This document shows, in pieces, positions 21,275-23,809 of a stretch of DNA of 26,507 nucleotides; position 1 is the stretch's first letter, and each line of letters begins with the position of its first letter. The notes beneath the pieces were generated by a model. That model was not told the DNA's origin, did no database searches, and was given only the letters and a program-made list of their open reading frames with translations. This DNA comes from Gryganskiella cystojenkinii (Eukaryota > Mortierellomycota > Mortierellomycetes > Mortierellales > Mortierellaceae). The position numbers and the translations under genes are program-made. The stretch spans positions 1 to 26,507 of the forward strand of contig JAAAIG010000553.1 in NCBI GenBank assembly GCA_015852425.1. Reading direction: 5' to 3'.

Positions 21275-23809
21275 TTAGCACTTGCAGCTCTTGTCACCAG
21301 GGCGAGGAGCGTTCAGGAGAGGAGCAGCATACTTGTGCCAGTAAGCTGGGGGCTCAAACGACTTTTGAGCAGCGTTTACTGTGGCAAAGTAAGCAGGGTA
21401 GATGTTGCCATCGTACTTGCCAATGGGTGCCTTGAGGACGAAATCGGGGATCACCCAAGCATCCACCAAAGGAACCGCATCCCTGCGGAGATCCTTGCAC
21501 TGATCCAAGAACAATTGACGAACATGCTTGGCATGCGAACCATCAAAGTAACCTTCCTCCAAGAACAAGTCCAAATGCTTGCGGAGCGCAAACGTCGCCA
21601 TCAACTGACCCATCTTCTTGAGCATGAAATGAGTAGGCTTGGCCTTCTCACGATCAATTCCACGCTGGTAAAGGATCAGAAAGTATCTCCAGGCATGAAC
21701 ATCTGCAAGGCGGACCAACTCGGTTTGGTTCGTATTCCATGCCTCATCGAAATTGGCCTTGCCAGCCTCCGCGAGGATAGCAGCCAGATCGGTGGCCTTC
21801 TTGGCGCAAGCCCAGGTCAAGGCATCGATGACAAACTCGTGGCTGAGCAAGTCGCGAGGGTCTTGGAAGGTTGTCTTGGGGGTTGAGAGGATCTTCTTGT
21901 AATCGTTGAAATAAGAAACCGACCCAACGACCTCCTGTCCTTCCTGAGCCCACTTCAAAGTTGTGATTAGGTAACGAGCCGACTGTTGCATCAAGACAAC
22001 ATTGTCTCCACCTCCGGTCGTCACGACTCCATAATCACCGATCAAACCTGCGATCGAGTTGTAGGCCGAATAAGCGTGACCACCACAGGCACGACGACAA
22101 GACTCCAAAATCTCCGTCGCGTACCAAGCGAGGGCACCCTTGAAGCCTGCAGAGACTCCGTGTTGATCTGGAATCTCGCGCATGAACGCACCAGCATCCG
22201 TCTGAGCATATTCGGCCACCTGGTCCCACTTTTCAAACAACTCGCGGTCAACAATGTTCAACATGTAAAGGAAGGAGACTCCGGGCATCAAGCTGGTGTA
22301 ATGAGTCTGGTAATCGAGAATCTGTTCGTCATGGTTACCCTGACGACGGACGGCACCATAACGAACAGCGATGGTCAAGGTCTGTGAGAGAACGACCTGG
22401 GATCCCGAAAGAATGGTGAAACGCTCAGGAATCAAGGTCGCGTACGAGAGGACGGGGTTAGGTGAAGGGGTGAACTCTCCTTCGGGGGACATAGAAGCCC
22501 ATTTCATCAACATGTTCTCGCGGGGAATACGGACCGAGGTGAACTGGATCCAACCGTTATCGAGACCCTGACGAGAGGACTTGTGGCCGATATCACCGCA
22601 AGTAACACCGGGGAGGAGACGGCCTGTCTTGGGGTCACGGAGAGGCACGATGAACCAGTTGATGCCATGGTTCTCGCCATCGACGACGGTCTGGCAAATG
22701 GCAACTTTTGAGAGTTGGAGTAAAAACGAGAGCAGCGGTTAGAACCCTGATGATTGTGGAGCAATTAGAGTTGGGTCCTGGAGGAGTTTTTTTTTTCTTT
22801 TTGTCACTTTAACCCAAAGGGTCCTGAGAGATCGGCGAATCACCCGATACTCTTTTTCTCCACGTTGGTATCTTTGTAAGATCTCCATGTTTATTGTGTG
22901 CTTACCGGTGTGAGTGGCGGTCTCACCAGACATGCCGATCCACCACTTAGTCGAGGTCAAAGTAGGCGAATGAATCACAAACTCGTTCGTGGCACGGTCA
23001 TAAGTTGAGGTGGTTTCCAGTCCGCGCAAGTTTGAAGAGTGTCCCAGCTCGGTCTATTCAGTTATCAAGGATGCAAAAAGCGAGAGGAGCATTAGCGACC
23101 GGGTCATAAGAACGCATAGCTTTTACGCATGCACGACGTTGTTGACTCTTCTTACCATGGCGAAGCATCCAATGACTCTCCAGTTCTCAATATCGTCCAT
23201 CCACTTGTCCTGCTGCTCGGAAGTACCAAAAAGCATGAGGGCTTGCTTGAACAACATGTCATGGACATACACTCTCATGGAGTAAGACTCGGAGTAAAAG
23301 GCCATGGCCATGAATAGCGCCTGACGTTGACGTGGGTCTTTGATGGTCTTCTTGAGCTCGATCGTACGAGCGATCTGACGCATGGTCTGCTCCCGATCGT
23401 CGGCTCTGGTCAAGTCGTAGTGGTGACCCTCACGCATGCGAAGATCGGGGTCGCGCTGGATCGTTTGGTAGGCGAGAGACTAATAAATTGGATACGTTGG
23501 AACAGAAAGAGTGTTTTGGTTAGTCTGCTGAACGCATGTTGCACGAAGGAACAGTCGGCTCATCGGGGGGGTTTTTTTTTGTTCTTGTCGGCTGGTGCAT
23601 ACCAAGGCAGCAATGTTCTCCTTGCCACGGAGAATGACCTCGGTCATGTCCTCGACCTTGAAGGAGGCGTTGGCACGCTCGCGAGCGAGATCTGCTGGGC
23701 CTGTGGGTTGATCGTTATGGATCGCATGGCGTTGAAAGCAGGGCTGGATCGAAAGGTGGTTTTGAACGGCAGTGAGACGGGCTTTGGCCGAGGTGGATGC
23801 GGGTTCCAT
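21275..23809 (-). CDS. Acyl-CoA oxidase B, catalytic Glu replaced by Gly
   Basis: Four exons on the minus strand, 23809-23603, 23479-23156, 23053-22906 and 22704-21275, encode 702 residues. Acceptors are TAG, TAG and AAG. The last junction restores THT-VAICQ, so the unusual AAG site is well supported. Family marks include CFAMTELGHSSN, TSTKWWIGM and GGHAYSAYN. Where oxidase A has CTWEGDN, this protein has TTGGGDN: the catalytic Glu position is Gly458 (codon GGA). The fold should be kept, but ordinary oxidase activity is in doubt. Residues 11-19, RLTAVQNHL, match the PTS2 pattern R-L-x5-H-L, as in oxidase A. The C-terminus SCKC is not a canonical PTS1. The chosen ATG is the first in the leader. 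The first intron lies close to the position of intron 2 of oxidase A, in the same phase, which supports shared ancestry. Confidence 0.92.

Follow-up and report, generated by a model that had tools for sequence, protein, structure and literature searches.

The window analysed here is a 26,507-nucleotide contig from Gryganskiella cystojenkinii (JAAAIG010000553.1, contig C610 of a possibly incomplete 35-Mb fungal assembly of 1050 contigs). It encodes two acyl-CoA oxidases, A and B, and we conclude that oxidase B is very likely a working enzyme whose predicted catalytic base has been relocated from its usual place in the JK loop to a glutamate, Glu320, on helix G. The case for this relocation, which is one of sequence and predicted structure, is made by an exact exchange of residues between the two positions, the constancy of both across relatives, a single split in two trees, alignment with isovaleryl-CoA dehydrogenase (IVD) and long-chain acyl-CoA dehydrogenase (LCAD), the domain content and the predicted fold.

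Reconstruction of the splicing of oxidase B, which lies on the minus strand, joins exon 1 with the start codon (23,603–23,809), exon 2 (23,156–23,479), exon 3 (22,906–23,053) and exon 4 (21,275–22,704, which carries helix G, the JK loop and the C-terminal domains PF22924 and PF01756) across three GT-AG introns that keep the frame, and gives a protein of 702 amino acids. Its acyl-CoA oxidase N-terminal, middle, C-alpha1 and ACOX C-terminal domains all score above their Pfam cut-offs (bits/cut-off: PF14749, 59.5/25; PF02770, 51.8/33.3; PF22924, 147/27; PF01756, 138.5/22.1). The JK-loop motif is TTGGGDN in oxidase B and CTWEGDN in oxidase A, such that Gly458 (22,010–22,012, minus strand) is aligned to the catalytic Glu465 of oxidase A (codon GAG, 10,025–10,023, minus strand) and Gly457 (22,013–22,015, minus strand) to its Trp464. 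The original prediction had placed this glycine correctly, but its codon is GGT and not GGA as given there; GGA encodes the neighbouring glycines 457 and 459. Because of Gly458, oxidase B stands outside the canonical subfamily of oxidases with a JK-loop Glu.

At the start of helix G, after the middle domain, oxidase B reads YATLIPERFT, oxidase A YGALIQGRVA and human IVD MSGLDLERLV. When the alignment is set in register at the Arg (Arg321 of oxidase B, 22,421–22,423, minus strand), the catalytic Glu254 of IVD falls on Glu320 of oxidase B (codon GAG, 22,424–22,426, minus strand), the proposed relocated base, and the two proteins run ungapped from this Arg up to a further Arg that they share. A profile comparison (hhalign) of 15 proteins of the oxidase B type with four dehydrogenases from the same genome likewise places the helix-G Glu on the Glu of an LCAD-like NHERM motif. 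The second position, 138 residues away, is occupied by the pair Gly457-Gly458 in oxidase B, Gly374-Ala375 in IVD and Trp464-Glu465 in oxidase A. Excerpts of an LCAD structure paper assign the base to the JK loop in all known acyl-CoA dehydrogenases except LCAD and IVD, where it is on helix G (PMC10925408), and excerpts of a second paper describe how in IVD an Ala replaces the usual Glu and widens the pocket sideways for the beta-branched substrate (PMC5798300). Oxidase B has both features of such an active site: a Glu precedes the invariant Arg where helix G starts, and the JK-loop Glu is replaced by a small residue.

The two positions were then compared across 260 distinct relatives from three overlapping protein searches (the best 120 matches of each), which with oxidases A and B make 262 aligned rows. 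A Glu at the position of Glu320 defines type B (138 rows) and a JK-loop Glu type A (124 rows); every one of the 138 type-B rows carries Glu320, none of the 124 type-A rows does, and Arg321 is found in all 262. Among the 259 rows that can be scored at both positions, 135 have Glu on helix G only, 124 have it in the JK loop only, and none has both or neither. The other three are type-B rows gapped at position 458 (P0014, P0045 and P0057); in the remaining 135 that position is Gly (120), Ala (14, including P0067, a partial protein in which the motif is lost right afterwards) or Ser (1), and position 457 is Gly in 135 type-B rows with 3 gaps. At position 320 the type-A rows show Gly in 123 cases and Ser in 1, and at position 457 Trp in 123 with a gap in the other. 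The Gly at the base position is more than chance, since oxidase B and its 120 nearest relatives listed never have Glu there (Gly 103, Ala 14, Ser 1, gap 3). The five solved oxidases among the matches listed are all of the JK-loop type. Type B occurs in other early-diverging fungi, where the original prediction had suggested that the variant be sought, and also in amoebae: the matches listed include Mortierella relatives, Rhizophagus, Gigaspora, Mucor, Rhizopus, Umbelopsis, Syncephalis, Thamnocephalis, chytrids and Allomyces, the amoebae Balamuthia (which also has a type-A protein, P0260) and Planoprotostelium, and environmental and transcriptome proteins.

Ten PF01756 matches were found in the genome itself, of which by eye three are type B (on C610, C526 and C382) and seven have the JK-loop Glu. 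In comparisons of the last exon by the NG86 method, the ratio of nonsynonymous to synonymous substitution rates (dN/dS) of oxidase B is 0.071 over 475 codons against the C526 paralogue and 0.103 over 340 codons against the C382 paralogue, with dS values of 1.5 and 2.4, respectively, that are near saturation. Purifying selection on type B is strong (dN/dS about 0.07), and these low ratios indicate that the oxidase B gene is not decaying; together with the intact exons they lead us to reject a decayed copy or a frameshift, and the earlier statement that the gene is otherwise intact holds. The C382 copy (locus L009) has Ser instead of Gly458; the C526 copy is locus L006.

In a 68-row tree that included the rat, tomato and Yarrowia oxidases and retained the trait columns, type B forms one side of one branch (Shimodaira-Hasegawa-like approximate likelihood ratio support 99), and in a 238-row FastTree tree from which columns 320, 457 and 458 had been left out it again does so (support 99). 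Both trees lack an outgroup, and the order of the two states is not fixed by them; since type B does not branch from within the other oxidases sampled, the type A/type B split looks old. A bacterial origin of type B was rejected when two scans of genome contigs gave 17 and 42 pattern matches and 0 confirmed encoded relatives, a weak absence given that the scans relied on just two and three short peptide patterns.

Against solved sequences, oxidase B has 27 matches at E ≤ 0.001, the best nine of which are acyl-CoA oxidases and none of which is named IVD; by closest sequence relatives it thus sits with the oxidases and not in the IVD family. The predicted model of a type-B relative (P0001) has an oxidase-type fold as its best match, with 30–33% identity to the canonical peroxisomal oxidases of rat (1is2), tomato (2fon) and Yarrowia (5ys9), which type B resembles in domains, length and fold. 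The difference from them is that type B has Gly for the JK-loop Glu, Gly for the aromatic residue preceding it, and a Glu gained on helix G. The likeness to IVD (1ivh) lies in the ungapped Glu-Arg register at the start of helix G and in a JK-loop Gly followed by a small residue. LCAD shares the helix-G base, as far as excerpts of its structure paper go (PMC10925408), and the Glu-Arg pair also occurs in two LCAD-like proteins of this genome on C816 (L014) and C331 (L012), which have HERM at helix G, PGG in the JK loop and no JK-loop Glu, but which differ from type B in their dehydrogenase length and in having Pro, not Gly, before the JK-loop Gly. Two further solved proteins, 3oib and 3r7k, also align with a Glu-Arg pair in helix G and two glycines at the JK-loop positions, although they are dehydrogenases of about 400 amino acids; the helix-G Glu/JK-loop Gly pattern is therefore not limited to IVD and LCAD.

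In the mechanism we propose, Glu320 would abstract the alpha proton, the beta hydride would pass to FAD and on to O2, giving H2O2, and Gly457-Gly458 could leave extra lateral room in the pocket for branched or bulky acyl groups; the enzyme may be peroxisomal. Several points weigh against this interpretation. The hhalign alignment ended before the JK loop, which was matched to IVD through its motif only; the relatives were picked by likeness and are not an even sample of eukaryotes; the 238-row tree was built by a fast method and several of its long branches were flagged; and oxidase B ends in CKC (last codons, 21,275–21,290) and not in a type 1 peroxisomal targeting signal (PTS1). PTS1-like ends are found in 25 of 137 type-B relatives, and CxC tails in 26 of the 137 type-B database rows (CKC 21, CGC 2, CRC 2, CNC 1). 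The CxC-tailed rows, in which the tail replaces PTS1, have ids from P0001 to P0050, and those that are named are Mortierella relatives; we take these tails to resemble the prenylation tails of Rab proteins.

What might such an enzyme oxidize? The wider site predicted for it suggests a branched or bulky acyl-CoA, and a substrate of this general kind is more likely than isovaleryl-CoA. A specific version, in which the relocated base serves an LCAD-like substrate (a branched long-chain, methyl-branched or sterol side-chain acyl-CoA), is in our estimation quite possible, if slightly short of an even chance. According to the excerpts cited above, in human LCAD a helix-G base occurs together with a cavity wide enough for branched and sterol substrates (PMC10925408), and three type-B paralogues would exceed the apparent need of one amino-acid degradation step; against this, the Gly-Gly of the oxidase B JK loop resembles the Gly-Ala of IVD, and the genome yielded no IVD match while later steps of leucine breakdown were found.

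A search of this one assembly with the C-terminal part of IVD returned four frames of 27–37% identity, on C403, C46, C987 and C326, and no IVD-like match; the best were C403 (82.3 bits, 36%) and C46 (79.4 bits, 37%), while the same query on solved proteins gave 340.7 bits for human IVD and 209.6 and 208.4 for two others named IVD, scores that come from two programs and are not strictly comparable. By eye, C403 is SBCAD-like (its best solved match is a short/branched-chain dehydrogenase), C46 IBD-like, C326 GCDH-like and C987 unassigned. None of the 12 PF00441 matches in the genome is IVD-like by eye (the comparison with solved structures covered C403 and C816), and all 15 PF02770 matches, also sorted by eye, fall on contigs already examined. 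As the assembly may be incomplete, this absence is provisional. IVD is not foreign to fungi, since a Fusarium gene is annotated as IVD in excerpts of one paper (PMC11817166).

Alternatively, C816 and C331, whose LCAD-like dehydrogenases have Glu on helix G and a JK-loop PGG, could supply the enzyme for the apparently missing step in place of oxidase B; we regard this as somewhat unlikely. The nearest solved relatives of C816, the one of the two that was searched, are 3oib (222.6 bits) and 3r7k (218.2 bits), and the first IVD-named protein is at rank 15 (132.7 bits), although a ranking by sequence is not decisive for the substrate. Rather less probable still is that type B is a peroxisomal isovaleryl-CoA (beta-branched acyl-CoA) oxidase which, in early-diverging fungi and some amoebae, has taken over the leucine-breakdown step of mitochondrial IVD. 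Its active site would then have reached the same solution as that of IVD, perhaps by a separate base exchange, H2O2 would be made in the peroxisome, and 3-methylcrotonyl-CoA would pass to the mitochondrial carboxylase. The idea fits the gene content, as no IVD match was obtained although the assembly holds the beta subunit of 3-methylcrotonyl-CoA carboxylase, which acts next in leucine breakdown (C145, 769 bits to its best solved match, 8j4z), together with 3-hydroxy-3-methylglutaryl-CoA lyase (C186) and a neighbouring SCOT-like gene; on the other hand, the gene neighbourhood may be due to chance, or the IVD gene may be missing from the assembly. Our search of the open-access literature for an isovaleryl-CoA oxidase in a leucine or peroxisome context gave no match.

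Turning from the substrate to the reaction, it is very improbable that oxidase B has the relocated base but acts as a dehydrogenase, or in another reaction that does not form H2O2. The relocated base is indeed described in dehydrogenases (excerpts of PMC10925408 and PMC5798300), but the acyl-CoA oxidase N- and C-terminal domains, the oxidase-type fold predicted as best match and the PTS1-like ends of some relatives argue otherwise. Least probable of all is the original prediction that oxidase B may be catalytically inert, as a pseudo-enzyme or as a partner subunit of oxidase A. It has the absence of the canonical base from oxidase B and its relatives and the presence of both oxidases in one window to recommend it, but nothing further was found for it, and we reject it given the strong purifying selection and a helix-G Glu, constant in type B and absent from type A, that sequence and profile alignment place at the position of a known active-site base. 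At this level of alignment, another Glu in the active site is the very result that the original prediction had named as its refutation; of its other suggestions, the use of another base is the one that the alignments favor.

The relocation of the base to helix G in oxidase B has precedents in the dehydrogenases IVD and LCAD, and its occurrence in the oxidase branch appears to be new within the literature searched: the portions of the open-access literature that our search covered contain no report of an acyl-CoA oxidase whose base lies on helix G. Work by Camoes in 2015 reportedly deals with peroxisomal acyl-CoA oxidases and dehydrogenases. Rat Glu421 is the number that the original prediction gave for the acyl-CoA oxidase base; the open-access search gave no match for it. 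If the relocation is right, a clean and old exchange of catalytic base would now extend to the oxidase branch, and annotation pipelines that check the JK-loop Glu alone will label an active enzyme as dead. It would also predict that early fungi carry out wide-pocket oxidation of branched chains in their peroxisomes and that leucine breakdown without IVD may occur in some of them.

The SCOT-like 3-oxoacid CoA-transferase gene (18,678–21,047, plus strand, start assigned by eye) is convergent with oxidase B (21,275–23,809), their ends being 227 bases apart. It scores 301.6 bits with TIGR02428 (cut-off 243.55) over 19,995–21,044, and 106.8 bits with the A-subunit model TIGR02429, below the cut-off of 128.5 because only part of the gene was given to the search. 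It could be a pathway neighbour of oxidase B that uses acetoacetate, a leucine end product.

Oxidase A, the canonical comparison gene of 714 amino acids, is also on the minus strand, with exons 1–3 and their introns at 11,252–11,787 (exons 11,693–11,787, 11,460–11,553 and 11,252–11,356) and exon 4, which carries Gly315, Trp464 and Glu465, at 9273–11,123; its predicted model was weaker (pLDDT 79.9) and was left unused. Finally, the 476-amino-acid frame on C987 (locus L015) is acyl-CoA dehydrogenase-like and by eye has Glu at neither base position, with LYGRPNL on the putative helix G and YAPAGTSDV in the JK loop, and on these residues its product would be more plausible as a pseudo-enzyme than oxidase B is.
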